From Gari tellinella (Eukaryota; Mollusca; Bivalvia; Cardiida; Psammobiidae): a stretch of 64,000 nt of DNA. The stretch spans positions 8,680,001 to 8,744,000 of the forward strand of contig OV277864.1 of the NCBI GenBank assembly GCA_922989275.2, written 5' to 3'. The notes under the pieces are model-generated. The model did no database searches, was not told where the DNA came from, and saw only the letters and a list, made by a program, of their open reading frames with translations. Numbering within the stretch: position 1 is the stretch's first letter; every line of letters starts with the position of its first letter. A program made the position numbers and the translations under genes. Shown one piece after another: positions 790 through 41,637 of this stretch.

Positions 790-2585
790 CCTAGACATAG
801 ACAATAGACAAATTTTATTTTACGTCGGATAGGTTTAACAAATTAACATATAAGCCCTGTACGTAGGGCTTTTACTCCGACAAACATAGGTAAACGTTAT
901 AAGAAACAAACAAACAAATAAAACAGATTTAAACAGGATCACAGACATGCATGCAAATAAACACAGTAGGCAAGTTGGTCAAAGCAAGTTAAAAAAATAA
1001 AATAACTAAAATATTTTTGTTGGTCAATGGGAGACAATCCATGCCCAACCACATTTAAGTAGTGCATATCTTACTTACTTAGCGTTACTTAGCGTTGTTT
1101 TCCGACAAAGGTCCTGGTTGGTCCTCTTCGTCAGACTCTTTTTCTTGACTTGCACTGGTGATTCCGGTTCCTGCATTACTTGTGCAAACTAAATCACTTT
1201 TATAATTATAAAAGACTTCTTGATTTTCCCAAATTTGTCTAGCCTATTTTTGAAAGTGTTTACATTTTTAGCCGAGATGACATGTTCTGGGAGGCTATTC
1301 CAGATGTTTGCTACTCTCACTGTAAAACTATATTTTCTTACATCTAACCTAGGTCTTTGTGAGAAGAGTAATTTTGAGTTACCCCTACCCCAATCTTTCA
1401 ATGCGTTATCTTTTCTCATTTTTAGAAAACCTGCCACTTCGGGGTCGTATACCTGACTTATTATTTTGTACGTTTCTATCATATCCCCTCTGCAGTGTAT
1501 CTACGATATTTTAAGGTTGGTAGTTTGAGTTTTTTAAGTCTATCCTCATAGGTTAACTCGCTAAAATTTGGGAGTTGTTTTGTGGCTCTACGTTGGACGC
1601 CTTCTATTTGTTCATTAAATCTTTCTTTATGTGGATTCCATACCGAGCTAGCATAGTCTAGATGAGATCTGACAAGGGCTTTATAAAGTGAATTGTTTTG
1701 ATCTAAATTGTAGAAGGTTCTTCTTATAATTGCTGCCATTGATTTTGCTTTCTTTACTTTTTCACAGATGTGATGTTCAAAACTAAACTTATTATCAACT
1801 ATGACCCCTATGTCTTTTTCTTGGGTTATACGATCCAGATCATTGTTCATTAATTTATATGTAAAACTGCTTGGTGGTTCGTGTTTCCCTACATGTAGGA
1901 ACTTGCATTTCTCTGGGTGGAATTTGAGGAGCCATTTATTACTCCAGTTTGTGAGGCTTTCCAGGTCCTCCTGTAGTATCTCTCTATCTTTATCTTCCTT
2001 AATTTCCTTATAAATTTTAGTGTCGTCTGCAAATAGGAATACTGTCGAGTTGACTAGGTCGGGTAAGTCGTTTATGAATATGACAAACAGTACGGGACCA
2101 ATGACGGACCCTTGGGGTATACCTGATGTTACTTTTTGCCAGTTAGAGGTTTGATCATTTATTGTGACCTGTTGTCTTCTGTCAGTTAAGAAGTCTTCAA
2201 TCCACTTGATGACATCATGGAGGAATTATAATTCCTCCATGATGACATCTTCATTGACTTTGTATGCTTCTAGTTTTTTTAGCAGTCTATTATGGGGGAC
2301 AGTATCAAACGCCTTTTGGTAGTCCATATATATACAGTCAATTCCCTCACCTCGGTCTAAGGCCTCAGTCCATTCGTCCAGCACCTTAATTAATTGTAGG
2401 GAAGTTGATCTTCCGGATATAAAGCCATACTGCTTATCAGTAAATAGTTTGTTTATCCTAAAGTGTTCTATAAGGTGGTCCCTAACTAGCCTTTCCATTA
2501 CTTTACCTATAACAGAAGTTAGGCTTACCGGTCGATAGTTGCTGGCCAGTGATCTTGTCTCCCTTGACCAGTCTATAGTTACAGT
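790..2585 (-). pseudogene. 5'-truncated CR1/jockey-like LINE reverse transcriptase and 3' UTR
   Basis: On the - strand: SNYRPVSLTSVIGKVMERLV, YGFISGRSTSLQLI, YMDYQKAFDTVPH, SGIPQGSVIGPVLF, FLFADDTKIY (catalytic FADD), then the thumb region and WNSLPEHVISAKNVNTFKNR before the stop at 1189. The reading frame carries two lesions. A 33-bp insertion (24-bp palindrome plus duplicated GATGTCATC) puts a stop after NEDVIMEEL, and a single-base shift lies near 1482 between LPTLKYRR and GDMIETYKI. The 3' UTR runs to about 790 and contains an AGCCCT/AGGGCT stem followed by AAAATAAAATTTGTC. RNA-mediated copy by target-primed reverse transcription is the known mechanism of this class. Confidence 0.9.
2217..2240. 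mobile_element. 24-bp perfect palindrome with 9-bp direct repeats, inside the LINE frame
   Basis: ATGGAGGAATTA followed by its exact complement. Direct repeats GATGACATC at 2208-2216 and 2241-2249 flank it. Removing palindrome plus one repeat restores NEDVIKWIEDFL, the expected reverse transcriptase sequence, so the insertion event is directly visible. Confidence 0.85.
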
Positions 2586-3714
2586 TACAAAGGATACAGT
2601 GCAGTTTCTAATTTAGACCCTGCACTGACCGTCAGTGTCACTTTTAACTAATAATAAAAAGAAAATTACATAATGACGGTCAGAGGAAGCCACTTCTGCA
2701 CAATCCAAAAGTAGTAGTGCATAAAGATTAGTCCACTGACTAAAAAAATAATATAAAAAGTACCTAATGAATTAAATTAAATTAAAGTACTTAAATAAAT
2801 TAAATAAATAAAATTTTAAAATTGTAAATTAAAAATACAACATGGGTAAATTACAAAAATTACATACATCAAATATGATATTTTTTAACAGAACAAAACA
2901 TTGTAGGTGAATCTGAATCTGAATATTGTACGTCGTAGAATCCTATAAAGGCTTTTACATTTGCATTTTCTGGTCTGAATAAAAACTGCGGCATTTATTG
3001 CAGCTGAAACTTATCTAGATATCTTATTATGTATTTAACATCTGTATCAATACGTCGTAGAATCCTGTGAAGGCTTTTACACGACATTATCAATAACAGA
3101 TTTCTGACAAAATTTCTTTGATTCAAAATTTCATTTGGTCTGAAACGACGACCGACGAAGGTTTGTTTGTTTTTGGCCGAAATGCCATTTGGTCCGAAAC
3201 GACCAAACAATGGCCTTTGCGTCCGAAACAACTCTGGTCCGAAACAAGCCGAAACTCTCTTTCAACTTTGACCCTTTATTGTTATTCGGGATGTTTCGGT
3301 GCTTTACGGTTCGGGTTATCTAGTATAACGTCAAAGTTACAGCTTTCACCTTGTTTATGAGTAAAGGCTTTGAAATAAATTGTAATTTTACCAGTTTCTG
3401 AACAAAATGTCATTGTAATTTTAACCTGATATAGACTTCACTACCTCGGAATGGCTAGTACAGTTAGACGATTACCTTTGAGGTTACTGATTGCCATTGA
3501 AAAATACCAAAACAAAGTCCTCTGTGAGTATAATATACATGTATGACATTAATGATGCATGTTATAACAGTTGATCTATACAAATCAACCACCTCTGTAT
3601 TTAGCGACTAATCGTTAGAAAATACACTGGTTGCCATTAATAAAGATGGATGCCAGTACCATCAACTATAGATCTTCTTCATGACTTTAATCTAATACAA
3701 ATGGTCTCAGAAGG
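2586..3714. other. Gene-free stretch with two small repeats
   Basis: No gene is supported. TACGTCGTAGAATCCT...AAGGCTTTTACA occurs twice (about 2929-2962 and 3050-3083). A cluster of GGTCCGAAAC or variant motifs lies at 3130-3255. The rest is AT-rich without recognised structure. Confidence 0.6.
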
Positions 3715-13149: not shown

Positions 13150-13335
13150 ATTTATCAGCCAGTAACCATGGCAACTGCAAGCTTCCTACGTTTCTTCAAA
13201 GAAATCATCTCCATAACTCGTGTGTTCTTCACTCAGGCAAGAGAAGCAAGAACAGAAGAGTAAAGAAGCCCACTGGGACGGAACAGCTGTGTCCGAACTG
13301 TAATGCTCCTATGCCAGATGCCAAAAATACTGATG
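13150..13335 (+). CDS. clpX: ClpX exon with basic N-terminal region and first zinc-finger half
   Basis: After the acceptor ATTTCCAG the frame reads a basic, Ser/Asn-rich stretch ([19 protein letters not shown]) followed by [11 protein letters not shown], the first CxxC of the ClpX zinc-binding domain. The donor is GATG|GTAATG, phase 1. Another frame opens with [12 protein letters not shown] but stops before the CPNC motif, so it is not used in the join proposed here. The exon begins 22 bp after the end of an AGCTCACC-type repeat (ends at 13128). Confidence 0.82.
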
Positions 13336-16300
13336 GTAATGAAACAATATTGTGATGCATGTTTGGTGTGGAACTAACCGACAGACTTGCTTTTTTCAGA
13401 CCTGCATGGTCCTGACTTGAGACTGAGTGGTTCTGAAATGTCATAAACTACAGTCGAACTTCGATATCTCAGACTCGCTAAATTCGAACTATCTGATTTG
13501 TCGACATGAATTGCATTATTTCATGCTCTGTTAAGTAAAACACACCCATATTTCAAAGTTAAAACGTGGCTAAGCCACGTTTTAACTTTGAAATACGGGT
13601 ATGTTCGACCAAACTGAGTTGGAGGTATCGAAGTTCGACTGTATGTTGAAAAATCATGGACAGTTATCGTTGAACTGAAGATGATCTATGTAAAGAGTTT
13701 GGATTCAGATAATGTCCCTTTTAACCCTTTCCTCTATAGCCATTGTTGCAAATCCTTTAGACTATCATCTATGTAACTGTGTCTAAGGCAAGATACTGCT
13801 TAACCCATTACCCCATAAATACACTTTTTTACGCCCTTTAATTTATTCTTCCACTTAAGAAAGTAGTTTCAATTTATACAGCTATACATAAAAATTATGT
13901 ATTATAAGAACTTTTTTCTCCATTCTAGCAGATGATAGCTTAAAGCAGGCTGAAAGTAAAGCAGAATGTGCCTTAAGGCGCATTCTGCTTTACTTTCAAC
14001 CTGCTTTAAGTGGTAATATTTTTTCAAAATTAGAAACAGGCTATGGGATAATGGGTCAACCCATAGCTTGTTTCAAGTAACCCGTTACCCATAATCTATT
14101 TAAAGTTTTGAAGACAGCCCTGTGACCACTAAAAGCAGGCTGAAAGTAAAGCAGAAAGATCCGCATGGACTTTTATGAATTAATTTCAGCCTGCATTTAG
14201 CTACTATCTGCTAGGATATAGAAAATATTTCTTATGCTGCATATTCATGATGGTAATGGGTTACAGCAAGATAAAAGTAAAGCAGAAAGATCCTTTTAGG
14301 ATTTTTATGCCCCGCACGACCTGGCAGGGGCATATCGTTTTTGGTTTGTTTGTCTGTACACACTTTAACCTTGGCCATAACTTTAGAACTAACATAGGAT
14401 AGAGACTTATATTTGGTATATGTTCTCACCTCAAGAAGCTCTAGAGTTCAGTACAACTTTGGTCATGTCCGACAAAGGTCAAGGTCATTTAGAGGTAAAA
14501 TCAGGTGAATTTTACATTGGCCACAACTTTGGAACTTCATGTGATAGATACTTTATATTTAGAATGTGTACTAAAGAAGCTCTTTAGCTTGGTACAACTT
14601 GTGTCATGTCCAACAAAGGTCAAGGTCATGTGAAGGTCAAATACAGTTTATTAAACATTGTCCATAACTGTGATCATTTCTAAATTTAGAAAATAGCCCT
14701 CAAATATGACAAATGTTGTTATGACGACAACATCGTTATAATAAAAAAACCAATAATATACCAAGTTAAAGTCTACTTTCAGTCCGAATGACCGCTCAGC
14801 CGACTGTACATATACTCCCCTGATCATTGAGCCATCTTGCCTACAATATTGAGCACTGCTAACATATGGCGCAGTCAAATGCAGCCGCAGTACCGACTCA
14901 GACCCTTCACAGGTACCCATTTTAACCCCTGGGTGGAGAGGAGCGATTCGCGGTACATGTCTTGCTCAAGGACATTCCTGTACATCATCGGGGATTTAGA
15001 AAAAATCCCCTAGTCAGACCGCTAGTCCGGCGCGGGATCGAACTCACGACCCCTGGTACCGTAGTCCAATGGTGTAACCATTGGGCCACTACCTCATTAT
15101 GACATCAAGATGATGTCATGGTGCTTTGGTGATGATGCATTTGAATGAGAGGTTTCTAGATTTGCCACACTGTTTGCTTTACATAGTTTAAAGCTTTTGA
15201 ATTGAGCGAAAACAAATTTTGAAGGAGTACAATATCTTCCCTATGATTTAATTTTACAGCCAAATGAATACAGTGCAGTGACAAAACACCTCATGGGTAT
15301 TTGTCACTTACTATGACACAGTTCTTGTTTTCTGTTGAAAATCAATCATACCCATTATGAATGACCTGTTTGTATTGAAAATAAAAGAACAAGAACAATA
15401 AATTGTCAGAGAAATGGATTAACCTTTTGAACCCTAGTCACGCATATATGCGTCATTTGCAAACAGTAACCCTGTGAGGAGTACACTTGTCCTATGCAAA
15501 CAGTGTTGACCCTGATCAGAGGGCTCCTTAAGGAGCCCTCTGATCTGGGTCAACACTGTTTGTCATTTTGACATATACTGTAAAAATCAACCCTAAAAAG
15601 TCAAACATGGACTAGACTAAATTGAAAACTGGAATTGTCCATTTGAGGTTTCAGGGAGGAAAGAGTTAATTGACACATTACTTTCAGAGAAAGCTGGGTT
15701 TTTTTCACTTTCAGAGAGTCAGAAGCTGTATAAGTGCTACAACTGTATGTCTGTTCATGTCATGGAGACCACAGTAGAGGCTCAAGAGGAGAAACTCAAA
15801 ACACCCAAAGAGGTGAGACTGAAGAACACTGAACTCAATGAGTTCTCCCTTCATTTGTCAAACGTCCTGGGGCCCGTTTTACTAAACTACTTACACAAAC
15901 TTTTTGCGTAAGTCAAAATCGTTTTACTCTTATTTTTCAATCTTAAACGTTTGCAAACGCCAAACAGCAAATAGCCAGATCAAAGGACGTGCTAAAAGCG
16001 CGTACTCTGATCTGGCTATTTGCTGTTTGTAGCAAGTGATAATAAAAGATGTAAATTAAAATTTAAAATTTTGACTTACGCAATATAATTGCGTAAGTAG
16101 TTTACAATATTTTTTTCAATATTCCAGATATGGAATTAAATTAATATTAATATATATACTGCTCTTTTCTAATATTTCGACCACTAAGGGCCTTTTTCAA
16201 AGAAAATCACGTCAAAACACACGTCACATTTTTGTTACATGCATTCAGCCATAAAATCAAAGAGAATAATGTTTACAACTTTGTTTGTTATTGCCGTTGT

Positions 16301-19300
16301 CATGACGTCATGTGTGCAATAGCGTCATGCATGCATTAGTGCATTATCCTCCTTGACATTACAGCCAAATGGTCTGTACGTTCTCAGCTTCCAAATCCAA
16401 TCGGTTTCATAGATCTGTCTTTCAATTCTACTTCCATTAAACATCCTCTTCAAAATGATAAATCTAACATCATCACTACTATGTCCTCCTACTCCAAAAT
16501 GCCTATTAATTGGCTTCTCTCTCTCATGCCTTATATCACTCAAATGTTCTTTCATTCTAAGACTAACCGCATTGTTAAACCTAGCACTGTGGTTTGTTCA
16601 CAAGAATGTACTACTTGTAGTATTCTTGAAATGTCAAGTGTTAAAGACACATATGAACAATCAATTTTCAAGGTGTGTACTAATATTAACTGTAGGGAGA
16701 GAAATGTCGTGTATGCAATAAGATGCAATAAATGTGATAGGATGGTGTATGTAGGCGAGACTGAGAGAGAAATCAGAGAGAGAATGAAAGAACATTTGAG
16801 TGATATAAGGCATGAGAGAGAGAAGCCAATTAATAGGCATTTTGGAGTAGGAGGGCATAGTAGTGATGATGTTAGATTTGTCATTTTGAAGAGGATGTTT
16901 AATGGAAGCAGAATTGAAAGACAGATATATGAAACCGATTGGATTTGGAAGCTGAGAACGTACAGACCATTTGGCTGTAATGTCAAGGAGGATAATGCAC
17001 TAATGCATGCATGACGCTATTGCACACATGACGTCATCATCATGACGTCATGACAACGGCAATAACAAACAAAGTTGTAAACATTATTCTCTTTGATTTT
17101 ATGGCTGAATGCATGTAACAAAAATGTGACGTGTGTTTTGACGTGATTTTCTTTGAAAAAGGCCCATAGTGGTCGAAATATTAGAAAAGAGCAGTATATA
17201 TATTAATAAGTAGTTTAGTAAAACGGGCCCCTTGACCTTAGCCTAACCTAGGGTTCAAGATAAGGAGTAAACTAAAAAAGTGACTTAGTCAAACATTTTC
17301 TCACCCATTTCAGCAACAAATCCTGTGGTGTAGCTACTCATTTGCATCGTCTCGAAGCTATGATTCTAATGAGTTGTATCACCATAGGGTTTAATGCAGA
17401 AATATAGATTTTAATCAGATAACTCATATGTATGCAGTAAACCCCTCTTATACAGTCCTTCCCTAATCAGTCAGATACGACAGCAGCACCTAGCTAAGAC
17501 ACACAGTGCATAACAACAGACTGGTAGCTAAACAACTCAATAGAATTGCTTCACCACCAGCTATATTATATTACCCATGACCCATATAATAAGAGGCAGT
17601 AAAAAGGCTTATTAACTCTTAGCCTGCCACTCACGACTGTAGCTCCATATGCAAACAGCTTGGATCCGGATGAGACGCCGAGTAACTCGGTGTCTCATCC
17701 GGATCCAAGCTGTTTGACACTCGGACAACTTTGAAGCACTTTGAAACTTGAAGCAGACGAGAAATATAGCAGACGACAATTTATTTGGCGGGCTAAGGAT
17801 TAATGGGACACTAAAATATTGACTGTATCTTAATGCACATGTTTCTGTTTTTTCTCACCAGCTGAAGGCCTATTTAGATAAACATGTAGTGGGTCAGGAC
17901 CTGGCCAAGATGATGCTGTCTACGGCTGTATATCACCACTACAAGCGTGTCAGAAACAACACAACCACTCTCAGTGCTAATGATATGGTGCTGCCCGCCA
18001 ATAGTCTGTCTCAGACACAGTGGTACTCCAATGGTAAGGCTTGCAGGGCTGCCATAATTTGATCATGAAAAATCCTTAGATTTCTAATTTTCATGCCACC
18101 GCATAACTTAGTGGGGGCATATTGGTTTTGGTCTGTCTGTACACAACTTTAACCGTGGCAATAGCTTTGCCACTACATAGGATAGAGACTTTATATTTGG
18201 TATGTGTACTCATCCAAAGAGGCTCTTGAGCTCAGTACAACTTTGGTCATATCTGACAAAGGTCAAGGTCATTTAGAGGTAAACTCATGTGAATTTAACA
18301 TTGGTCATGAGTCCATAACTTTTGAACTGCATGTGGTATAGACCTTATATTTGGTATGTGCAATCAACTCTAGAAGCCTTTGAGCTTTGCACAACTTTGG
18401 TCATGTACAACAAAGGATTAAGAGGTCAAATACAGTTAACCCATTACCCCATAGCCTGTTTCTATTTTTAAAGAAAATGATCATTTAAAGCAGGTTGAAA
18501 GTAAAGCAGAATGCGCCTTAGGGCGCATTCTGCTTTATTTTCAGCCTACTTTAAGGTACCATCTGCCAGAATATAGAAAATATTTCTTATGATACATATT
18601 TATTATTGTATAAATTTGAACTATTTTCTTCAATGGAGGAATAAATCAGATGCGTAAAAAAGCATTTTTAGGGGTTAATGGGTTAATTAGATATTGGGCA
18701 TAACTCTTTTATCATATGATTATTTCTAAATTTATAAAAATAGTCCTCAATATGACAAAGGTTGTTATTTTTATAGAGTAACTTTATTTTTTTTTGAAAT
18801 TAACAGTTTATACGTGATTTTGATTTTTTTTATGGTGAAACTTTGTTTAGAATAGAATATTTGATCATTAGAGTGAACTATTTACATTTGCCCCATTCAA
18901 TTCCATTTAAAAATGTGTCGTTTTAATTTGTTTAGATGCCATTGCTTCTTCTTTGTTAATGAGATAAATTGCAAGAAAATGGATTTACCTTATATACAGC
19001 AGCTGTCTGCATTTCTTGATAACAAAAAAATCTATATATTTATCCTACTTTAAAAATGACTTAATTTCCAAATAATGTAAAATGGGCATTTTTGCACCAA
19101 ATGACGATAGGATGTAAATAATGCAACTTATTATTTTGCTTTTGAATGTACACAGCTTCAGTAATGGGGTAATGGCGGTCCTTATAGGGTAAACATTATT
19201 TGTGTTATCAACCTCTAATATGGATTAAACATACATGCATACTAACAAAATGTTCATTTAAATTAAGAAATTATAATATGTACAGCAAATATATTGTAAA

Positions 19301-22300
19301 TATAAGAAATGAACTGATTTTTTTCAGAGTTCAAGCAAAGTAAAGAACAGAAAATTATTGGTAAATTTACCATGGTATTTGCCGATAATTTTCTGTCGTT
19401 TATTTCTCTTGAATGTCGAAAAAATCAGTTCATTTTTAGCTCACCTAAGCCAAAGGCTCAAGGTGAGCTATTGGGATGGCCCTCTGTCCGGCGTCGTGCG
19501 TCGTCTGTCGTCATTATTAATTGCTTCAAATAACATCTCCTCCTATACCGCTTGACAGAATTCAACCAAACTTTACAGAAATGTTCCTTGGGTCAAACTC
19601 TTTCAAATTTGTTTAAAGAATTAAAAACAATGCAGAACTCTGGTTGTCATGGCAACCAAAGTGAAAAAATAAGGAAATCTTAAAAAATCTTCTTGTCAAA
19701 AACTGCAAGGGCCAGAGCTTAGATATAGCTTAGATATTTGGCACATAGCATCATCTAAAGGTCCTCTATCAAGTTTGTTCAAATTATGCCCTTGGGGTCA
19801 AAATTGGCCCGCCCCAGGGGTCACAGTTTTACATAGAGTTTTATATATAGTGAAATTTTCAAATGTCTTCTTCTCTGAAACCAATATGGCCAGAGTTTTG
19901 ATATTTGGCATGGTGACACTTCTAGATGTCCTATACCAAAATTGTTCAAATGGTTCTGGCCGGTTGCATAACTATGGTTCTGGTCGATTGCATAACTAGG
20001 TCACAGGAGCTTAAAATAGATTTTTTTCAATGAAAACTTAAAAAATCTTCATGTCTAAAACTACAAGGGCCAGAGCTTAGATATTTGGCACATATCATCG
20101 CCTACAGGTCCTCTATCAATTTTGTTCAAATTATGCCCCTGGGTTCAAAATTGGCCCCACCCCGGGGGTCACAGTTTTACATAGAGTTATATAGAGAAAA
20201 TTTCAAACGTCTTCTTCTCTGACTCTAATATGGCCAGAGCTTTTATATTCTGTATAGTTCTGCTTTTAAATATACTTTACATATTTTGTTCAAATTGTTC
20301 CGGTCTGTTGCATATCTAGGTCAGTCCTGGACATAAATCAATATCTCCATTTTTTCAGCTATTCTCAGGTGAGCGAATTATGCCCCATGGGGCTCTTGTT
20401 TAAATGTATTTTTTCAAGTGAATAGAAAGGGAAATAACGCATCCTATGTTACATATAGGGCTGTGCATCAGCAGTTATTTCCTTCACGATTCGTATCCTG
20501 ATATTTCATTTTAACGACAATACATTTCATGATACATGTGTATGTATTGCCTGTGAGAATGAAAGGCGATCTGCTTTACTTTAAACCTGCTTTAATTGGT
20601 CATCTATCCTCAATACTAGAAACAGGCTAAGTAGTAAGCCGCCTTTCTTTGATGAAGTATATTTTAGCAAATCCCTTTGTTTAACCTGTAGCCTGTTTCT
20701 AGATTTGAAAATAGGTGACCACTTCCATCTGCTAGAAAATAAAAATTATCCTAATAGCACATATTCATGACTGTGTAAAGTGGAGCTATTTTCTTCAGTG
20801 GAATAAAACATTAAAGGCGTATTTGTGGGGGGGATGAGTTAAAAAACAATTCTAAATAGTTTTCTTTAATAACATAATGCTTCTTGGAGACATAACAATT
20901 GAAAAATACTTGGGTAAGTTTCTGTGTTGTCCATGTTATCTGCAACTTGTAAACAACGTGAATTTCTTCCCCAGGTCAAAAAGCCAGCACACAGGGAGAA
21001 TCTCAGGGGTCAGAAGGAACTGAAGATAAACCCAAAGTATTTATAGAGAAAAGCAACATTCTCATGATAGGGCCAACTGGATCAGGTATTCAATATACAT
21101 GTAAAAAGGATATTGAATAAGTGTGTTTTCAGTCGTGAAATTGTTGAACGAGTTGGATAAAATAATATGTTGCGAGCCTTGGCGAGCAACATATCATTTT
21201 ATCCGAGTTCAATAAATTAACGACTGAAATTCACGAGTTTGATATCCTATTTATCACATAAACACCAAATGACAATATTCAGCAGCTGTCTGATTTCGGT
21301 CTGCAGTGTCTTCAAAAAGTATTAACCCTTAGCCCGCCAAATAAATTGTCGTCTGCTATATTTCTCGTCTGCTTCAAGTTTCAAAGTGCTTCAAAGTTGC
21401 TCAAAATTGCTGAAAATGTTGTCCGAGTGTCAAACAGCGTCTCATTCGGATCCAAGCTGTTTGCATATGGAGCTATAGTCGTGAGTGGCAGGCTAAGGGT
21501 TAATATAATTATATATGCTATTAGCTCTCAGGAGAAAAGTTAACTCTTTACCATAGAGCCTAATTCTGGTTTTGAAGACAGATGACTACTTCAAGCATGT
21601 AACAAGTAAAGCAGAATTCTGCTTTACTTGTAACATGCTTTAAGTTACCATCCATTAGTATATAGAAAATACCTCTTTTGATGCATATTCATATCTGTAT
21701 AAAGTGGAGTTATTTTCTTCCATGGAGGAATTTATAAATGAAGGCATAAAAAGGCATATTTATTTAGTAATGGGTTAAGTAAAAAAAAACTTGAGTGTGG
21801 ATATTGAAACAAAACAGAAAGACTGTAAAGACAGATATTAAAAGAGAAACTATCATACAAGAAAGGAAGGCATTCCTCATATTACTGCAATAAAAGAAAG
21901 CTTCTGAAGGAGCTTTCTGCTTAACTTTTGGTCTGCTTTAAGCTTCTATCTGTCAGTATGCAGGAACAGTTTCCTATAGTTCTTGATCAGAACACAGTTG
22001 ATAGAAGCATGAAAAGAAATTTCTATGAAGTGAAGGCATCAAAATCAGTGTTCCTATTGAGATGTGGGGAAAAGGTTAAAGAATAAGTTTGCTGTACAGT
22101 CTAGACTGTCTTAACGACCAGCTGTAAATACTGAAGTGCTGTGTTAAACGACTGTATGTTTTGCTCCCAAACTAATTAACTATATATTTAGTGTTAGACC
22201 ATGTGCTTCTCTATGAGCTGACCAATAGTGTCCTCCACAAACTGAAGATCTATCTTAAGGGGAGATTATCCATTCACAAACTGTTCCAAGAGTTATCCCA

Positions 22301-25300
22301 TATAACAAAGTATTGAACTATGAACTAACTAACAGTAAACTAACATTTAGTTCCATATAACGACATGCTGTCTTATCAGTTAATCTGACTGTGTAAACTG
22401 TTCCGTTTCTTTTATATCGGGGGTGATTTCGGTTGTGTTAACTCTTTCCTCCCTGAAACTTTAAATGGACAATTCCAGTTTCCAATTTAGTCTAGTCCAT
22501 TTCTGACTTTTAAGGGTTGTTTTTTTCAATGTTTGGCATTATGACAAACAGTGAAGACCCTGATCAGAGGGCTCCTTTCGGAGCCCTCTGAACTGGGTCT
22601 TCACTGTTTGCATAGGACAAGTGCACTTTTCACATGGATACTGTTTGAAAATGACGCCTATATGCGGGACTAGGGAATTCTGAGGTTCCGGTTTTCTGAA
22701 ACTTACTTTTGGTTAAAATAAGAAGGGAAAAAATCGGGACCGGACAGAAAGTTCGGTATTCCGAGGATTCCGGATTTCTGGGACTCCGGTTTTCCGAGTT
22801 TATACTGTATCAATTTGAATAAGCTACATGCTTTGTGATGTTGAAATAAACATATTTGTATAATACATATAAACATCTTTCTTAACCTTTAACTTAGACT
22901 TTCTTGTACATTATAACAATTTTATTTAAATGTAACATATACGAGGTAGTTGTATAACTTGTGTTAGCTTACCAGCTGTCTGAACCTATTACCCCATAAA
23001 TACGGCTTTTTACTACTTTGATTTATTCCTCCACTGAAGAAAATAGTTTAAATTTATACAGTAAGGAATATGCAGCATAAGCAACATTTTCTATAGTCGA
23101 ACAGATGATAGCTTAAATCAGGCTGAAAGTAAAGCAGAATGCACTCTAAGGCGCATTCTGCCTTACTTTCAACCTGCTTTAAGTAGTCACCTGTTTTCAA
23201 AACCAGAAGCATGCTAAATGAGATAATTGGTCAAATGACCTTATTAGCTGCCTCCCATCGAAGGTCATATATGACAGCCTCGACTGTATTCAAATTGTAA
23301 TTTCTCGCATAACTACCCATGTTTTCTATAGCTATAGCGAACACCGATTATGAATTTTTTGTCTCCAACATGTATGAGATCAATTTGATGATGTTACTAT
23401 AACGTCACTATTTATAACGGCGTTTTGACGTCCCCGGATTTCCAAAAAATGCCTATTGCTTTAAAAAATAGTTTAAAATCGTTATGTTATAAAAATAATC
23501 TGTCACTTGTTGATGTTTAAGACAAGTTGATCTCAAACTCGTCTAGAATAGAAAAGTTATTAAGCTTGCCAGGTAAAACGTACCTTGCAAGGACTGTAGC
23601 CAAGTATTTAGACGTTCAAATTGTATATATTTTCAGGTAAAACATACCTTGCCGAGACTGTAGCCAAGTATTTAGATGTTCAAATTGTATTTTTTCAGGT
23701 AAAACCTACCTTGCCGAGACTGTAGCCAAGTATTTAGACGTTCAAATTGTATATTTTCAGGTAAAACCTACCTTGCCGAGACTGTAGCCAAGTATTTAGA
23801 CGTTCAAATTGTATTTTTTCAGGTAAAACCTACCTTGCAGAGACTGTAGCCAAGTATTTAGACATTCAAATTGTATATTTTCAGGTAAAACCTACCTTGC
23901 CGAGACTGTAGCCAAGTATTTAGACGTTCAAATTGTATATTTTCAGGTAAAACCTACCTTGCAGAGACTGTAGCCAAGTATTTAGACGTTCAAATTGTAT
24001 TTTTTCAGGTAAAACCTACCTTGCCGAGACTGTAGCCAAGTATTTAGACGTTCAAATTGTATATTTTCAGATAAAACTTACCTTGCCGAGACTGTAGCCA
24101 AGTATTTAGATGTTCAAATTGTATTTTTTCAGGTAAAACCTACCTTGCCGAGACTGTAGCCAAGTATTTAGACATTCAAATTGTATATTTTCAGGTAAAA
24201 CATACCTTGCCGAGACTGTAGCCAAGTATTTAGACATTCAAATTGTATATTTTCAGGTAAAACATACCTTGCCGAGACTGTAGCCAAGTATTTAGACATT
24301 CAAATTGTATATTTTCAGGTAAAACCTACCTTGCCGAGACTGTAGCCAAGTATTTAGACATTCAAATTGTATATTTTCAGGTAAAACGTACCTTGCCGAG
24401 ACTGTAGCCAAGTATTTAGACATTCAAATTGTATATTTTCAGGTAAAACATACCTTGCCGAGACTGTAGCCAAGTATTTAGACGTTCAAATTGTATTTTT
24501 TCAGGTAAAACCTACCTTGCAGAGACTGTAGCCAAGTATTTAGATGTTCAAATTGTATATTTTCAGGTAAAACCTACCTTGCCGAGACTGTAGCCAAGTA
24601 TTTAGACGTTCAAATTGTATTTTTTCAGGTAAAACCTACCTTGCCGTGACTGTAGCCAAGTATTTAGATGTTCAAATTGTATTTTTTCAGGTAAAACCTA
24701 CCTTGCAGAGACTGTAGCCAAGTATTTAGATGTTCAAATTGTATTTTTTCAGGTAAAACCTACCTTGCCGAGACCGTAGCCAAGTATTTAGACTTTCAAA
24801 TTGTATTTTTTCAGGTAAAACCTACCTTGCCGAGACTGTAGCCAAGTATTTAGATGTTCAAATTGTATTTTTTCAGGTAAAACTTACCTTGCCGAGACTG
24901 TAGCCAAGTATTTAGATGTTCAAATTGTATTTTTTCAGGTAAAACCTACCTTGCAGAGACTGTAGCCAAGTATTTAGATGTTCAAATTGCCATTTGTGGT
25001 TGTACAACCTACCTTGCCGAGACTGTAGCCAAGTATTTAGATGTTCAAATTGTATTTTTTCAGGTAAAACGTACCTTGCAAAGACTGTAGCCTAGTATTT
25101 AGATGTTCAAATTGTATTTTTTCAGGTAAAACCTACCTTGCAGAGACTGTAGCCAAGTATTTAGACTTTCAAATTGTATTTTTTCAGGTAAAACGTACCT
25201 TGCCGAGACTGTAGCCAAGTATTTAGATGTTCAAATTGTATATTTTCAGGTAAAACCTACCTTGCAGAGACTGTAGCCAAGTATTTAGACGTTCCATTTG

Positions 25301-28300
25301 CCATTTGTGATTGTACAACGCTCACCTCAGCTGGATATGTAGGGGAGGACATAGAATCTGTGATAACTAAACTGCTCATGAATGCCAATGGAAATGTAGA
25401 GAAATGCCAGCAGGGTTAGAAATAGTGCTATTTATTAACTCTTTCCTCCCTGTAATTTTAAATGGACAATTCCAGTTTCGATTTTTGTCTAGTCCATTTC
25501 TGGCTTTTAAGAGTTGTTTTTGTCAATTTTAGCATTACTGACAAACAGTGAAGACCCTGATCTGAGGGCTCCTTTCGGAGCCCTCTGATCTGGGTCTTCA
25601 CTGTTTGCACAGGACAAGTGTACTATTCACATGTACACTGTTTGAAAAGACGCCTATATGCGGAACTAGGGTTCAAAGGGTTATCTTGAACAATTACTAT
25701 TGTCTTCAGTGGAGTAACAGATTAAAGGAGTTAAAATGTGTATCTAAGGAGTATGGGTGAAGTAAGTGTTTACAATTGGAGAATCTTTCATCTTTCCCAA
25801 TTAAAGCATTTACCGTAAACCTATTATATCCAGAGCAACAAGTTTGGAACCAGATCAGATGCATCTAATCAGGCTCGAAATTGTTTGCCACTCAAAATAA
25901 AATAGTCCGAATTGAAATTTCTACATTTTATTGAAATATGTTTGAGCTTCTTTGGCGTCTAAATGAAAAAGAAGAATGTCTTTTTCACTGTAGGACTTTT
26001 GTAACTCTTGTGTTTTTATGCCCCCTCAAGACTTAGTCTGGGGCATATTGTTTTTGGTCTGTCTGTCTGTCTCTATCTGTTTGTCTGTCTGTCTGTCTGT
26101 CTGTCACTTTAACCTTAGCCATAACTATAACTACATAGTATAGAGACTTTATATATGGTATGTGTTCTCACCTCAAGAATCTCTTGAGTTCAGTTTAACT
26201 TTGGTCATGTCAGTCAAAGGTCAAGGTCATTTAGAGGTAAAATCTGGTGAATTTAACATTGGCCATAACTTCAAAACTGTATGTGACAGAGACTTTATAT
26301 TTGGAAGGTATGCTTAAGTCGAGAGGCTTTTGAGCTTGGTACAACTTAGGTCATGTCCAACAAAGTTTAAGGTCATTTGGGAGTCAAATACAGTTAATTA
26401 AACATTGGCCTTTGATCATGTGATCATTTCTAAATTTAGAAAATAGTCCTCAATATGACAAAGGTTGTTATTTTTGTATAGCAACTTTATTTTTTCCAAA
26501 ATGAACAGTTAACAATTATGTGATTTTGAATTTTTTTAAAGGTGAAACTTTTGTTTAGAATAGAATATTTGATCCTTAGAGAGAAATATAATATTCCAAG
26601 TGAATATGAAGGGAAATAACTCATCCTATATTATTTCAAGTGAATAGGAAGGGAGATAACTCATCCTAAATTTTTGATCATGTGATAATTTCTAAATTGA
26701 GAAAATAGTTCTCAATTTGACATATGACAAACCTTGTTATGACAAAGACGTCATCATGACATCAATATGATGGCATGATGCTATGGTTATGGTGCAGTTG
26801 AATAAACTAGAAAAAGCTTGTTTCTTTGTACATTTTCATCACAACAACAGCAAGGAGTACAATTATAACCTGCTGTATAATTTGATTTCACAGCAATATG
26901 AGTACATTGCAGTGACAAAACACCTCGGGGGATTGTAACTTACTGTGACACCATTCTTGTTTATTCTGACCTCAGGTATAGTCATGCTGGATGAAGTAGA
27001 CAAGATTGCCAAGACCAGAGACGTACGACAAGTGAGAGATGTGGGTGGGGAAGGAGTGCAGCAGGGCCTGCTGAAAATAGTGGAGGGGACACTGGTGAAT
27101 GTGCCAGAAAAGGCACGAAAAAGTAGAAACTATGCAGGTGAACTGGTTGCCATAGATACAACTAACATTCTATTCATTGCATTTGGAGCTTTTAATGGAG
27201 TGGAAAAGATTGTGAAACGGCGGAAAGAGGGAAAGGTGAGTTTTTAGATTTGTTGATTTTAAGCCTTTCTCCTGTATAATTCTCTAAACATATCTGTTTA
27301 GATACGCGTTTTATGTTTAGCTTGCTTAACCCTTTACCTGATAGAAGCGCCTTTTAGCGCCTTTTAATTTATCCATCCGCCAAAGAAAATAGTTCAAGAT
27401 TATACAGGCATGAACATGTACAATTAGAAATATTACTTACATACTATCAAATATTGGCTTAAAGCAGGTTGAAAGTAAAGCAGAATGCGCCTTAGGGCGC
27501 ATTCTGCTTTACTGTCAACCTGCTTTAAGTGGTCACTTGCCTTCAAATCTAGAAACAGGCTATGGGGTAATGGGTTAAAGATACCATCTGCTGAGATATA
27601 GAAAATATTTCTTAAGTTGCTTATTTATGACTGTATAAAGTAGGAACTATTTTCATCAGCGAAGGAATAAATTAAAGGTGTAAAATTGTGTACCTATGAA
27701 GTAATAGGTTAACACAGGCTAAACTGTATACATCTATTTATCAGGGTCAAAGGATGGTTCTCAAGCATTTGATTGGTCAGATTTGAGCTTTTTCCAGCAA
27801 AAGCTCAAATCTGACCTATCAATTGCTTGGTAACGATCTCAGACTCAACTCAGACTCTTTATAACCTTGGTGCCAGATGTCCATATTCCTGTCTATTAGT
27901 GGTCCTCTGAATCATTAGTGTCTTCCCTGTTTTTTGTCCTGTTGCTACAAATTGTTACAAACAATTCCTAAATAGTCAAATATGGACTCAACTTGTTTTG
28001 AAACAGGAATTGTTCATATCAGTTTTCAGGGAACAATGAGTTAACCCATTACCCCTTAAAAACGCCTTTTTACACCTCTCATTTATTCCTCCACTAAAGA
28101 AAAAAGTTCCAGTTTATACAGCCAAGAATATGTACCAGAAGAAATATTTTCCATATCCTAGAAGATGGTAGCTTAAAGCAGGCTGAAAGTAAAGCAGAAT
28201 GTGCCTTAAGGCACATTCTGCTTTACTTTCAACCTGCTTTAAGTGGTCACCTGTTTTTAAAGCTAGAAATAGGTTAAGAGGTAATGGGTTAACACATGTA

Positions 28301-31300
28301 CAACTGTATTTACCAGGGGCCCGTCTTACGAAACGTTGTACGACAAAAAGAGTTGTACGTTGAAACTTTAAAAAACATATCATTTCTGATTCTGTCTTAT
28401 CATGGAGGAATTATACCCGGGTATAATTCCTCCATGGTCTTATCCTGTCTAATGACATCACTTTGGAATCGTATTTTCAAGACAATGCAAAAGAGATGTC
28501 ACAACATAAGATAAGACAGAGAAAAAAATAAATACTGAGAATTTTAGTATCTGACTTACGACAATATTCGTCATAAAATGTTTCGTTAGACGGGCCCCTG
28601 ATGTCCATATTTCAAACTTTCTTATTACTTCCAGTCCCTTGGATTTGGAACCGCTGTACCCTCTACAATTACGACCAACCTTCCAGAAAACACTAGTGAA
28701 GAAGATGCAACTATCTATGGCGACCTCAAACAGAGTGACTCGTTTATGATGATGGTGGAAGAACGTGATCTCATTGACTTTGGACTAATTCCAGAATTTG
28801 TTGGCAGAATGCCAAAAATTGTGCCCTTGCATAATCTTGATGAGGATATGCTTGTGCAGATTCTGACGGAGCCAGAGAATGCCATACTCAAACAGTATCA
28901 GTGCAGTTTTATGATAGATAAGGTAGGCGTGGCTCTAGCTACAGACTGCATGGCGTCAGATATCAACCCATTACCCTATAAATACGGGTCTTTAATTTAT
29001 CTATCCACTAAAGAAAATATTTCCAACTTATATATCATGAATTTGTATCATAAGAAATATTATCTACATTCTAGGAGATGGCAGCTTAAAGTATGCTGAA
29101 AGTAAAGCAGAATATGCCTTAAGGCACATTCTGCTTTACTTTCAACCTGTTTTAAGTGATCACCTAACTTCAAAACTAGATACAGGCTATGGGCTAATGG
29201 GTTAAGTTGGAGTAGACAAACAATGCCAACATTTTCTCCTTTTTGTTCTGTTCAAACCCTAGGAGACAATTCTAATGAGTAGTCCCATTATAGTGTTCAC
29301 AGAGAGTGAGTAAACTTAGGTTTAAAAAATGTACTCCTTCATGTCTGCATTAACCCTTTACCCCATAACCTCTTTCTATTGAAGAAATATCACCACTTAA
29401 CCCTTTACCCCATAACCTCTTTCTATTTTGGAAGAAATATCACCACTTAACCCTTTACCCCATAGCCTATTTCTAGTACTTAAGATAGGTGACTACTTAA
29501 AGCAGGTTGAAAGTAAAGCAGAATGCGCCTTAGGGCGCATTCTGCTTTACTTTCAGCCTGCTTTAAGCTATCATGTACTATAATATAGAAAAATATTCCC
29601 TAAAATACATATTCATTACTGATTAAATTGGAACTATTTTCTTCAGCGGATGAATAAATCATAGCCGCTAAAAGGCGCTTCTATTGGGGAAAGGGTTAAA
29701 CTAGGTTGAAAGTATAGCAGAATGCCTAAGATGCATTCTGCTTTACTTTCAACTTGCTTCAAACTGTCATCTGCTAGGATTTAGAATATATTTATGATAC
29801 ATATTCATGGCTTTATAAAACTATTTTTTCAGTGGAAGATTAATTGAGTAGCGTAAAAAGGCGTATTTAAGATGTAACAGGTTAAACCCTTCTGTGCGAC
29901 TACCCATTAGAATTGTCTCTTTGAGACATTTTGAAAAGTATCATACCATAAGGTATGGTGCAGTCATAGATAGTTTAGGTTTTGTAAGCTCTGAGGGAGA
30001 CAAAAGGATAAACTTTTCTCCCTCTCTACAACAACACCCAATGGGAGACAAAGATTATGTCTGTTTTTTCGGAGGAAGTTGTTATAGGGAGGGAAATTTG
30101 CCTACATTTGCAAACAGCTTGAATCCAGATCTGATCTGATCTGAATTCAAGCTGTTTGTCACACACCATTATATTTTTTCTGTCAAAAATGTCCTATATG
30201 TGACTGAGAAAAACAGCAGACATCAATTTTAAACAGACAATTTTGCAGCCGTGAAAAGGTTGGACATAATCCTCTTGTTTGGGGGAACAAAACAAGTATT
30301 CTTGCAAGGAGATAATTATTGTTGTTGAGAGGCCCGTTGTAGGGAGGGAGCACTGTAGCTTTGGATGTACAGTAGAACCTCTTTATTATGACCACTAAAA
30401 AGAAGGCAAATTGTCCGTATAAATGACAGGTGACAGCTTAACCCTCTCCCCCATAGAAGCGCCTTTTAGGGAATGTAATTTATTTCTCCCCTGAAGAAAA
30501 TAGTTCCAATTTAATCAGTCATATCAGAATATATATTATAGCGAATACATTCTATATTCTAGCACACAATAGCTTAAAGCAGGCTGAAAGTAAAGCAGAA
30601 TGCGCTTAAGGCGCATTCTGCTTTACTTTCAACCTGCTTTAAGTAGTCCGCTATCTTCAATACTAGAAATAGGCTATCAGGTAAAGGGTTAAAGCAATGT
30701 GAAAGTGAAACAGAAAGCTCCTGTAGGAGCTTTCTGTTTCACTTTCACATTGCTTTAAGCGGTCAACTGTCTTAAACGGCTAATATTTGACACAACTTAG
30801 TGGATGTAATAGAGAGGTTCTACTGAACTTTACCTGAAGTACCTCTGCATCTGTGGTTTACCCTGTTATGAAAGCCTATTCTACTAACCCTTATCACACT
30901 GAATTGTCATCTGCTACAAATATATTGTCACTGGCAAAAATTATGATCAGCATTTCATGTTTATTAAACCAAACAGAAATAGAATATGAGTGGCAAACAG
31001 TTTGGATCCAGATTAGATGCAGCGTGATGCAATGTCTGATCTAGATCCAAACTGTTGAAACTACAAAGACCATCTGCACTGATATTTGCAAACAGTTTGG
31101 ATTCTGATCAGATGCTGAATAATAAATGTTTGACAAATATGTGAATGTTTTTTAAGTACAAAAATGTTTATTATTTCATAGTTTATAAATACAGCAGTTG
31201 TAAAAATTAAGCAGTGACTGCTTGACGGGTCTTTCATCATTATGGCAGCGGAAGGGATGTAAACCAATTTTCAAATTCTGTTTGAAATACAGCTACAGTT

Positions 31301-34300
31301 TATAACTCTTGGGGAGCTGTGCAAACAGTTTGGATCCAGATGAGACGCCACGTAATTGACACTCTGACCTTGATGTGAATAGACCAAAAGAATACCAACC
31401 ATGCAAAGAGATAATTTAGCTGAAATTTGTGCTATGAAATCATGACTAAATCTATACTATAGTCGGTCTAAGAAAATAGAGAAAAACATGTCATGGCATG
31501 AAATAGGGTGGATTTATATTTTGAGGGGATGCACAAACCATGATGTTTGATTGGTAAACCCTTTACCCCATAGCCTGTTTCTAGTTTTGAAAATAGGTGA
31601 CTTCTTAAAGCAGTTTGAAAGTAAAGCAGAAAGTGCCTTAAAGCACATTCTGCTTTACTTCCAGCCTGCTTTAAGCTACCACCTGCTAGAATAAAGAAAA
31701 TATTCCTTATGAAACATATTTATGACTGTTTGAATTGGAACTATTTTCTTCAGTGGAGGAATAAACTGAATGGGCTTAAAGGTGCTTCTATGGGGGAATG
31801 GGTTAACCCTTAGCCCGCCAAATAAATTGTTGTCTTCTATATTTCTCGTACGCTTCATGTTTCAAAGTTGCTGAAAATGTTGTCCGAGTGTCAAACAGCT
31901 TGGATCCTGATGAGACGCCGAGTTACTCGGCGTCTCATCAGGATCCAAGCTGTTTGCATATGGAGCTATAGTCGTGAGTGGCAGGCTAAGGGTTAATATT
32001 GATTGATTGACTTCCAGATTGGCCTTTACAAGCTTTCCAACATTGTTGTTTCAGTGTGAATTACGAGTTACACCAGAAGCCCTACATGCTATAGCAAGAC
32101 AGGCAATGAAGAAAAGAGTAGGAGCAAGAGGGCTCAAAGCTCAATTGGTAAGTGTGTACTGCTCCAGGGCGGCCGTTTCTCCTGACTTTTCTGAAATATT
32201 TGGATTTTTATCCTAGCACATGATGGCTTAGAGCAGGCTGAAAGTAAAGCAGAAAGTGCCTTAAGGCGCATTCTGCTTTACTTTCAACCTGCTTTAAGTA
32301 TTCGAGTTTGGAAAATAGAAAATTGGGAAATCTTAGGATTTTCATTATCAACTTATGGCAGCTTTCCTGCTCAGTCAACATGAGTAGTAAATGAAACAAG
32401 GTGGCCGAGCTTATAAAGCTTAGAAATGAGTCTGGGGTTGTTTTCAAGCTTTTGATTGGTCAGATTTGAGCAGAATGATTAAATCTGACCAATCAAAAGC
32501 TAAATAAGCAGAGGTCCTGGTATCATGCCTTGCATTTACACTCTGTATGACTCGATAACGAGATTTTTTTAACCCCCCTACTCCATTGCCTGTTTCAGTT
32601 TTAAAGATAGTTGACTTCTTAAAGCAGGTTGAAAGTACTGCAGAATGTGTCTTAACCCATTACCCCATAATTACGCCTTTTGACGCCTCTTATTTATTTC
32701 TCCACTAAAGGTAGTAGTTCCAATTTACACAGTCATGGAAATTTTTCTGAAGAAATATTTTCTCCATTCTGGCAGATGGTTGCTTAAAGCAGGCTGAAAG
32801 TAAACCAGAATGCACCTTAAGCTGCATTCTACTTTACTTTCAACCTGCTTTAAGTGGTCAACTATCTTCAAAATATGACAAGCTATGGGGTAATGGGTTA
32901 TGGTGCAGTCCTTTTTACTATGAGCCTCCTTTAAGTTACCATCTTATGACTATACCTTGAAAGATTTTACATTTCTGTGTTTAACCCTTTACCTGATAAC
33001 CTATTTCTAGTACTTAAGATAGGTGACTACTTAAAGCAGGTTGCAAGTAAAGCAGAATGCGCCTTAGGGCGCATTCTGCTTTACTTTCAGCCTGCTTTAA
33101 GCTATTACCTGCTAGAATAAGGAAAGTATTAAATATGACACATATTCATTACGGTATAATTTGGAACTATTTTCTTCAGCGGATGAATAAACTGATGTGC
33201 TAAAATTCGCTTCTATAAGAGAAAGGGTTAAGGTCAATGTCGCTGTTATTATTTCAACACTTTAATCATTAGATGATAATTCTTATTACCCAGCACGACT
33301 TAGGCTGAAGGCTCAGGATGAGCAATTGTGATCCAATTCCGTCCAGTGTCTTGCGTCCGTCGTCTGTTCACATTTTCAAACATCATCTTCTTTGAAACCG
33401 CTGACCCAATTTCAACCAAACTTTGTCAGAAAGATCAGTGACAAAGGGGGGACTAAATAATGTTCAACGTTTTTAGCTAGAGTTATTCCCCTTGCTGTTG
33501 GACCAGAATTTCAAGACTTAGAATATTTTGAATAGGCCATATCTTGGTTAACTAGATTTTACCATTTTGTCTAGTAACAACAACACTTACTAGAATAGAA
33601 TGCTTTGATACTTATACAGATGTTGCCTTAGACCATTCACAATCCTTCCGTATCATCCAACATCAGTTTGACCTTGACCTTTAGGACTTAAAATATTTTA
33701 AAAGGACTATTTCTTGGTTAACTAGATTTTACTGTTTCACCTGACATCATGACTGCTTACTAGAATGCTTTGGTACTTATACAGTTGTTGCCTTGAACCA
33801 TTCCCAATACACCCATATCACCCAACCTTGATTTCACCTTGACCTACTTTGGACTTAAAGAGGCTCCCAACCGGATTTAGCATTAAAAATAGTAATTTGT
33901 AAATATATGTCAAATGCTTACATAAATGGGTAAGATTTAGTTTAGGATAATAAATTCTGTTAAAAAATGCATTTCAAAAAAAAAGAAAAAAAGAAAAAGC
34001 TCTGGTGGGATTCGAACCCGTGAACCTCCATGCCGAGAAAAACATGTAAAATGAGGAAACGCCTTTATCCCCTCGGCTACCAGCGCTATCTATATATATG
34101 GTAGCGAATTAACGTACTTCAGTGGTAGCGATTGATAGTACTTTATTCGGCTCGGGTTTATGTCTGAGCCCATGTAGAGAAGCAACAACAACAACTATAC
34201 TGTTAGCTTAAGCTATAGAAAAACGATGGAAAATATCTAAAAAAACTAAGATTCGGAGACACTTCTTGAGACTTTTTATGCCCCCGGCATCGACAGATGC

Positions 34301-37823: not shown

Positions 37824-38460
37824 TTAACCCTTTCCACCCTGAAACCTCAAATAGACAATTCTAGTTTTCAATTTAGTCTAGTCCATTTTAAGCTCACCTC
37901 AGCTTTTGCAATCCTTGAATGTCCAGCGTTCATGATCATCAATTTTAGTGTTTAGATTTTAGAGGCCACAATTTTTATTCAGTCTTTCTTAAACTTGCCT
38001 AGATTGTATATTACCATAAGAGTTCGGATGAGCATGATTGTGGTTGAAATCCGACCAATAGGTCAAGAGTTATCTACCTTTGAACTGCTAAAAATACCAT
38101 ATGTAACTGAATTTACACTCTAGAGGCCACAATTTTTATTCAATCTTTCTCAAACTTGCTCAGGTTGTATACTACAGTAAGAGTTTGGATCAGTTAGATT
38201 GTGGTTGAAATCAGACAAAAGACCGGAGTTATCTACCTTTGAGTTGCTAAAAATGCCATATTTAACTGTGTTAAACGTCTAGAGGCCACAAATTTGATCC
38301 AATCTTTCTCAGACTTGCCCAGATTGTATATGACTATAAGAGTTTAAATGAGTTCAATAATGGTTGGAATCGGATGAATAGATCAAGACTTATCTACCTT
38401 TGAATTCCCGAAAATGCCATATTTAACAGTGTTTACAGTATTACACCCTAGAGGCCACAA
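37824..38460. repeat. TTAA-B left end followed by an AGCTCACC-bounded tandem-unit repeat
   Basis: 37824-37888 is TTAACCCTTTCCACCCTGAA, cut by AGCTCACCTCAGCTTTTGCA. The rest is about three and a half degenerate units (near 160 bp) with CTAGAGGCCACAATTTTTAT, inverse of the units at 40760-41550. Confidence 0.65.
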
Positions 38461-40378: not shown

Positions 40379-41637
40379 AACAAGAGGGCCTGAAGGCCCT
40401 GATATCGCTCACCTGTTGTACTGAAGCCTGATAGCTTTACCTTTCTGTTTCACCCGTTTTAATCTAAATACATTCAAATTTGTAGTATAGCATGTAAACA
40501 ATTTTGGAATACAGCCTCATAATTCTAGTATAGTAGAGTACATCAAGGGCAGGTAACTAATGCCTAAACAATACTGAAATGAAGCCTTTTCTAGCATTTC
40601 AAAGTATATCAAGGGCAGATAACTATTGCCTCAATGATTAGATTTCAACAATAATTGCATTCCTTCGAGAACTTATAGCTATATACTTTGTGTGCAAGTA
40701 TAATCAAAATCCATTGAGAACTGTAGTTGCAAGAATGTAAAAGCTGTTAGATATTGCATTTTCAGCAATTCAAAGGCAGATAACTCTAGACATATTGGTC
40801 CGATTTCAACCATAATTGCACTTATTCGAACGCTTATGGTCATTTACAATCTGAGTAAGTTTGAGAAAGATTGGATAAAATTTGTGGCCTCTAGAGTGTA
40901 AACACCCTTAAATATGGCATTTTCAGCAATTCAAAGGTAGATAACTCTCGACCTATTAGTCTGATTTCAACCATAATCGTACTCATATGAACTCTTATGG
41001 TCATATACAATCTGAGCAAGTTTGAGATAGATTGGATAAAAATTGTGGCCTCTAGAGTGTAAACACTGTTAAATATGGCATTTTCAGCAATTCAAAGGTA
41101 GATAACTCTTGACCTATTGGCCCCATTACAACCAAAATCGAACTCATTCGAACTATGATGGTAATATACAATCAGAACAAGTTTAAGAAAGATTCAATAA
41201 AAATTGATGTCTCTAGAGTGTAAACACTGTTAAATATGGCATTTTCAGCAATTCAAAGGTAGATTACTCTTCTTTTATTGGCTTGATTTCGACCATAATC
41301 GAACTCATCCCAACTCTTATGGTAATATACAATCTGAGTAAGTTTGATCAAGATTGAATAAATATTGTGGCCTCTAGAGTGTAAACACAGTTAAATATGG
41401 CATTTTCAGCAATTCAAAGGTAGATAACTCTTGATTTGTTGGTCCGATTTCAACCATAATCGAACTCATCCGAACTCTTATGGTAATATACAATGGGAGC
41501 AAGTTTGAGAAAGATTTGATTAATTTTGTGGCCTCTAGAGTGTAAACACTAAAATAGTTGACGATGGACGACGCACACCGCACGACGGATATTCAAGGAT
41601 TGCAACAGCTCGCCCTGAGCTAGCTCAGGTGAGCTAA
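40379..41637 (-). repeat. AGCTCACC-bounded repeat with about five 160-bp tandem units
   Basis: Begins AACAAGAGGGCCTGAAGGCC and ends GCTCAGGTGAGCT. Units carry GTGGCCTCTAGAGTGTAAAC at about 40884, 41045, 41216, 41367 and 41526, with ATATGGCATTTTCAGCAATT and TCAACCATAATCG. Confidence 0.75.

Follow-up and report, generated by a model that had tools for sequence, protein, structure and literature searches.

A tandem array of splice-acceptor junctions in an intron of a ClpX-like gene of the bivalve Gari tellinella

Why should an intron carry copy after copy of its own acceptor junction directly ahead of an exon with a catalytic lysine, where did these copies come from, and how does the gene live with them? 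These questions are raised by a ClpX-like gene in a 64,000-nucleotide stretch of the bivalve Gari tellinella (GenBank assembly GCA_922989275.2, contig OV277864.1, positions 8,680,001 to 8,744,000 of the forward strand), which we call the window and number from its first letter. Tandem Repeats Finder reported a single array at 23570-25294 with a period of 62, 27.8 copies, 94% matches and 0% indels, while a separate scan from a fixed core counted 28 copies of the exon start, namely 27 upstream ones and the real exon at 25250 as copy 28. When the units were listed, they formed a plus-strand minisatellite of 28 head-to-tail copies (consensus aaattgtattttttcag|GTAAAACCTACCTTGCCGAGACTGTAGCCAAGTATTTAGACGTTC), in each of which 17 bp from the end of the intron precede the first 45 bp of the exon; all are in register with the real one, and the last copy is the real acceptor with its exon start. 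As an identity of 94% across 1.7 kb cannot be put down to chance, the array is confirmed as a real splice-junction minisatellite in this assembly. We consider it quite likely, judging from the sequence, that it is an intronic ‘mirage’ minisatellite derived from the native Walker A acceptor junction and carried as intron, with the origin and the working proposed below.

The copies are regular in the interior of the array and less so at its left edge. Successive copies lie 62 bp apart, except for 64 bp between copies 1 and 2 and 63 bp between copies 23 and 24, and the split into 17 and 45 bp is identical in all copies other than the edge ones and a hybrid one, copy 24. The junction AG is retained in 27/28 copies, AG|GT in 26/28 and the longer CAG|GTAAAA likewise in 26/28, and the Walker A lysine codon is kept in 27 of the 28. 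Copy 24 lacks the junction AG, and copy 9 (exon part at 24071..24115, + strand) reads CAG|ATAAAA and has lost the donor GT. Apart from the hybrid, the most diverged copies are copy 1 (77.4% identity to the consensus) and copy 2 (88.7%), unlike the right-edge copy 28, which is not diverged. Copy 1 (exon part at 23573..23617, + strand) has kept CAG|GT and lost its polypyrimidine tract, with 8 pyrimidines in the 17 nt before CAG compared to 11–15 at the other modelled acceptors of the gene; the rest of its intron end has given way to the terminal part of a mobile element. An earlier, sequence-only reading of this DNA had described 27 tandem copies, which is right when the real exon is left uncounted, and the unit listing bears out its division into 17 bp of intron end and 45 bp of exon start in register with the exon at 25250. 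Its coordinates, 23573-25414, begin where the first copy of the exon starts and extend to the last base of the real exon; the array proper is 23570-25294.

Tandem arrays are hard to assemble, and one of the amphioxus mirages discussed below was aberrantly assembled in a draft genome (PMC3087553), so one could suspect that misassembly multiplied one or a few copies. Here, however, the 28 copies comprise 21 distinct sequences, with ordered variants, a hybrid copy and decay at the edge, and a length of 1.7 kb is small by the standard of long reads. We therefore judge it quite unlikely that the array is an assembly artefact, whereas its exact copy number is less certain.

The gene that hosts the array was modelled from a tblastn search with E. 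coli ClpX (L001), which found ordered exons on the plus strand. The model (15715..36286, + strand) has eight exons including the stop (15715-15812, 17862-18033, 20975-21085, 25250-25414, 26976-27235, 28635-28922, 32055-32147 and 36092-36286) and an incomplete 5' end, and it encodes 459 amino acids to the stop with no internal stop, GT-AG borders and consistent phases. An additional 5' exon near 13194-13355, zinc-binding-like in tblastn, lies outside the joined model; when we looked for the N-terminal zinc-binding domain, tblastn placed Cys pairs at about 13290-13310 and 15723-15740, which are not joined in the model. The product carries the Pfam domains AAA_2 and ClpB_D2-small and matches the human mitochondrial ClpX chain 9ykx_A with E 2.4e-131 in phmmer. 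The two proteins have in common the AAA+ core, the Walker A motif GPTGSGKT, Walker B and GYVGEDIE, with homology over 98-432; the window protein differs as a bivalve-specific, fast-evolving paralogue whose model is incomplete at the 5' end. Two protein searches were made, of which we considered the best 120 of 7999 matches and the best 120 of 148 matches at E <= 1e-60. Among the matches listed, the closest named relatives are bivalve proteins from Mactra antiquata (P0002, 55%), Mercenaria (P0003, 56%) and Ruditapes (P0006, 54%), and none is from Gari tellinella itself, the top identities being 56% and 72%.

Whether this is the conserved mitochondrial ClpX, as the earlier reading had it, was addressed with a 17-row tree. 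The window protein joined six bivalve ‘ClpX-like’ rows (support 100/98), apart from the four canonical mitochondrial rows, on a branch of length 1.08 and in a placement that the tool flagged as unsure. The identity as ClpX thus stands, while the gene groups with bivalve ClpX-like paralogues rather than with the canonical mitochondrial gene, an assignment that the long branch and the flagged placement leave unsure. Two Mactra ClpX proteins bear adjacent locus numbers and, judged from these names, the paralogues may be tandem genes in that genus; within the window, the tblastn query with E. coli ClpX found no canonical paralogue. Redundancy with a canonical paralogue could relax the constraint on the ClpX-like gene.

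The upstream exon (20975..21085, + strand), placed by the exon model and tblastn, ends in GGATCAG|gtattc and with the first base of the Gly codon that precedes the Walker A lysine. After an intron of 4,164 nt, the real Walker A exon (25250..25414, + strand; 165 nt; 61% to E. coli ClpX in tblastn), placed in the same way, starts with GT AAA ACC (G-K-T) and has the donor GTTAGA at 25415; this exon model agrees with the earlier statement that the duplicated part encodes the P-loop with the catalytic lysine. The intron is thus in phase 1 and falls within the codon of the Gly that precedes the Lys in GSGKT. Because of this split, each copy joins an acceptor (TTTTTTCAG|) straight to a donor-like GTAAAA, so that 26/28 copies are an acceptor and a possible donor at once and each 62-bp step between successive AG|GT marks is formally a (mini-)intron. 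The last 17 bp of the intron hold no mark of the real acceptor, and what distinguishes it is the full exon with its donor behind it. With an upstream acceptor used and read through, the computed message would run into a premature stop in 27/27 cases, each time 779 nt or more ahead of the last exon junction. In general, messages with such premature stops are expected to be removed by nonsense-mediated decay (NMD).

We propose that most splicing goes to the last acceptor, the array itself being close to neutral. Exon definition would favour the last acceptor, because no other one is followed by the 165-nt exon and the donor of that exon. Use of an upstream copy would lead either to a premature stop and decay of the message or, with ATCAG|GTAAAA acting as a fresh donor, to re-splicing to a later acceptor, which would restore the correct message. 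Since nearly every rung carries AG|GT, extra rungs would be cheap, and the array could grow and drift. Most likely, then, the array is tolerated because the full exon stands behind the last rung only and errors either decay or are re-spliced.

The same features allow a bolder reading, in which the array is a working ladder for recursive splicing. Its rungs would be ratchet points, the spliceosome landing on any of them and climbing to the real exon, or they would form an NMD-coupled throttle; in either case the copy number would be a heritable, unstable timer or throttle that tunes the ClpX-like output. The juxtaposed acceptor and donor in 26/28 copies and the premature stop from every upstream acceptor fit this idea, as does the rung donor ATCAG|GTAAAA, which matches the donor consensus CAG|GTAAGT at 7/9 positions compared to 6/9 for the upstream exon's own CAG|GTATTC, the seven modelled donors of the gene ranging from 5 to 7 of 9. 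The strong donor consensus at recursive splice sites is GTAAGT; it was not found at the array junctions, which stop at 7/9 matches to CAG|GTAAGT, and the junction motif shows no extra conservation. Recursive splice sites, described as ratchet points and recursive-splicing (RS-)exons in PMC6224609 and PMC8605326, offer two possible modes of action for such rungs. They resemble the array in that an acceptor is followed by a donor-like sequence and splicing rebuilds a 5' splice site, and RS-exons of like logic occur in other animals (PMC6224609). The array differs in that its GTAAAA has no G at +5, in being a tandem ladder instead of a single site, and in its intron of 4.2 kb, which is not very long. 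All in all, we regard a functional ladder as unlikely.

RNA folding that would hide the rungs was also considered and rejected: three units, 186 nt in all, form a weaker fold than their shuffles (z +2.42), of which 200/200 are at least as stable. A 5-bp AGGUA/UACCU hairpin is possible over the junction in this region (24800-24985) and in each copy, and it arises because Tyr-Leu follows GKT here, where the listed relatives have Leu-Leu; we do not use it as support.

Could a new exon or intron be in the making? If one unit were inserted as a pseudo-exon, a premature stop would result in 26/27 cases, the sole frame-keeping unit being copy 23 with its 63 nt, which could then be imagined as a cassette exon. 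Mirages were proposed as a route to new introns by the amphioxus authors (PMC3087553). In the Rogers model of intron gain (PMC4974935), a duplicated AGGT supplies both AG and GT, and the piece between the copies can become a protein-neutral intron; the duplicated segment of the array also contains AGGT. In contrast to that model, the array copies lie inside an existing intron, beside an existing junction, and are known as duplications only, not as a new intron. Moreover, copy 23 would need the donor TGGTT|GTACAA, which lacks AG, its product would have the P-loop helix duplicated inside the conserved AAA+ core, and its frame comes merely from a 1-nt change that accompanies a patch of exon sequence. 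An exon or intron gain in progress is accordingly very improbable.

This patch (24989..25008, + strand) is a 20-bp segment lying where copies 23 and 24 meet; it is identical at 19/20 positions to the exon further downstream, at 25300-25319, and abolishes the AG of copy 24. Exon and array have thus probably exchanged sequence, through a conversion or a template switch that started from the functional exon; alternatively, the patch has survived from an early, longer copy.

Where did the unit itself come from? The introns of the gene are full of dispersed and tandem repeats, and a satellite from elsewhere might resemble the exon start or have captured it. Against this, the unit encodes the ClpX P-loop in frame, and no second source was found in the window, where the best matches outside the array are 18–31 bp long. 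These short matches, together with what probably remains of the native end of the intron at the left edge (see below), led us to reject a repeat that merely resembles the exon, and a foreign satellite in any form strikes us as extremely improbable. In a plus-strand blastn of nine exons (eight modelled, one approximate) with 100-bp flanks, no other exon border of the gene was found duplicated; apart from the array exon, only the flanks gave matches, to dispersed repeats, and no match within 3 kb touches another exon.

Both borders of the duplicated segment carry TTC before the break, GTATTC on the intron side and GACGTTC|CATTTG on the exon side, which points to a microhomology-mediated tandem duplication of 62 bp. 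From the anatomy of the array, the ancestral intron may have read ...GTATTC|AAATTGTA(TTTTTT)CAG, followed by an exon GTAAAACC...GACGTTC|CATTTG. The array probably started by tandem duplication across the 3-bp microhomology TTC, a step that would have created the novel join GACGTTC|AAATTG together with the 62-bp unit. Expansion to 28 copies would then have followed through slippage, unequal exchange and conversion; conversion or template switch may have placed the downstream-exon patch in copies 23/24, and a foldback element together with a deletion would later have damaged the left edge.

The left border is consistent with this sequence of events. A foldback-type mobile element copy, broken at its hairpin centre, adjoins the array (23300..23571, - strand); it aligns at 83% over 278 alignment columns to a relative on the other strand at 35794-36063, which carries 87-nt inverted arms. 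Directly left of it stands TTCAAATTGTA (23289..23299, + strand), which is identical to part of the unit. This 11-mer occurs nowhere else outside the array in the window on either strand, and a match to any unit phase at that exact place is expected from composition with a chance of about 4e-5. From these findings, the intron probably once ended in ...GTATTC AAATTGTA...CAG and was then interrupted by the element; this, and with it the microhomology origin, is supported, not proven. Copy 1 lacks the 14 bp preceding CAG, which had suggested that this stretch is filler of a duplication join; the alternative was rejected, the left flank being mobile element. As a side observation, foldback elements at 21172 and 35786 have a common hairpin centre, GCGAGCCTTGGCGAGC, with arms that look different; the one at 35786 is the relative of the array-side element.

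To see whether selection maintains the splice signals of the copies, we counted variable columns in the 25 internal copies, leaving out copies 1, 2 and 24. Of 62 columns, 10 are variable, and one of these falls in the 9-nt junction motif, compared to 1.45 expected (P(<=1) = 0.55), so the variability of this motif in the internal copies gives no sign of such selection. Two common variable sites change GACGTT to GATGTT (11/28) or GACATT (6/28), both by CpG-type transitions.

Several observations nevertheless weigh against the origin and working that we propose. The real acceptor belongs to the class with the weaker tract TATATTTTCAG (12/28 copies), while 14/28 copies have the T-richer TATTTTTTCAG, so its own sequence gives no reason for the last acceptor to be preferred. 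The donor ATCAG|GTAAAA, on which re-splicing would depend, has A at +5 and +6, whereas six of the seven modelled donors have G at +5. Exon-side changes over the 28 copies lean toward the synonymous (6 of 13 distinct changes; 24% expected, P = 0.07), which is unexpected for a purely neutral intron, although such a lean could also stem from CpG decay or from conversion with the exon as template. With copies 1 and 24 left out, neighbouring copies resemble each other slightly more than they would in a random arrangement (P = 0.052), a weak sign only of local expansion. Finally, the ends of the array-side element, the left end especially, are placed by comparison with one other copy, and the 64 kb contain four further chance matches to other 11-mers of the unit.

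The sequence-only reading had called a satellite built from an intron/exon border unusual, yet there is precedent. ‘Mirage’ minisatellites of intron/exon borders have been published for amphioxus, in Adh3 and the globin genes BflGb6 and BflGb9 (PMC3087553), to which TnC and PGBD5 were added (PMC3902484); both papers relay Canestro 2002 NAR as a source. The array in the ClpX-like gene likewise is a tandem repeat that spans an exon-intron boundary with AG/GT in many copies, and it resembles the amphioxus mirages in its tandem border copies in register with the real one. Concerted evolution inside the cluster and decayed copies at its edge, known from the amphioxus mirages, may be shared in part: the left-edge copies 1 and 2 are diverged here and the right-edge copy 28 is not, and the likeness of neighbouring copies is slight. 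The closest parallel is BflGb6, where the 3' end of the intron and the 5' part of the exon are repeated, as here. The two BflGb6 haplotypes have 6 and 3 copies compared to 28 in the mollusc, and the units measure 150–160 bp in BflGb6 and 10–72 bp in Adh3, as opposed to 62 bp. Further differences are the AG|GT in 26/28 copies, the readable origin at a TTC microhomology and the exon patch. The sequence-only reading also supposed that the copy number is likely to vary between individuals and could change the splicing of ClpX. For the amphioxus mirages, RT-PCR suggests that regular splicing is undisturbed, and those of Adh3 show somatic instability (PMC3087553); normal splicing and instability are thus demonstrated there, whereas the array described here is known from genome sequence alone. 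No report of a mirage-type array in molluscs was recognised in the open-licence literature, mostly titles and the starts of abstracts, in which amphioxus alone appeared (PMC3087553, PMC3902484). Within the reports known from these sources, the array is a long mirage minisatellite outside the chordates.

Mirage arrays may therefore not be peculiar to cephalochordates, and the present one shows a possible way in which they start, by microhomology duplication of a native junction. It also preserves a trace of probable exchange between coding sequence and the shadow copies of it in the intron. A row of almost identical acceptors whose main difference is their position amounts to a natural experiment on the choice of 3' splice sites, in which most use of upstream acceptors would appear as insertions in multiples of 62 nt with a stop. 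Should the ladder reading hold after all, its logic could be general, given that a phase-1 intron splitting the Gly before the Walker A lysine (G|GT AAA) puts a donor-like GTAAA at the exon start and would predispose P-loop exons to such ladders.

The window holds several other features. Inside an intron of the ClpX-like gene lies a GIY-YIG open reading frame (PF01541, E 1.9e-06) at 16340-17014 (+ strand), between inverted-order repeats seen by eye at about 16230-16400 and 16940-17180. The region looks like a mobile element, which we take to be perhaps of the Penelope kind. At 1479-2612 (- strand), a LINE-like reverse transcriptase is spread over two stop-to-stop frames that lie next to each other, one recognised as RVT_1 (1482-2225, E 2e-18) and the other by eye. 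Two tandem arrays with a 161-bp unit, at 37960-38433 and 40732-41550, are about 82% alike and have opposite orientations. A 366-aa frame at 51836-52936 (- strand) with the DXD-type glycosyltransferase domain Gly_transf_sug (PF04488, E 1.3e-21) looks like an ordinary gene, and one tRNA gene is found at 60971-61043 (+ strand; Rfam RF00005, 65.9 bits).

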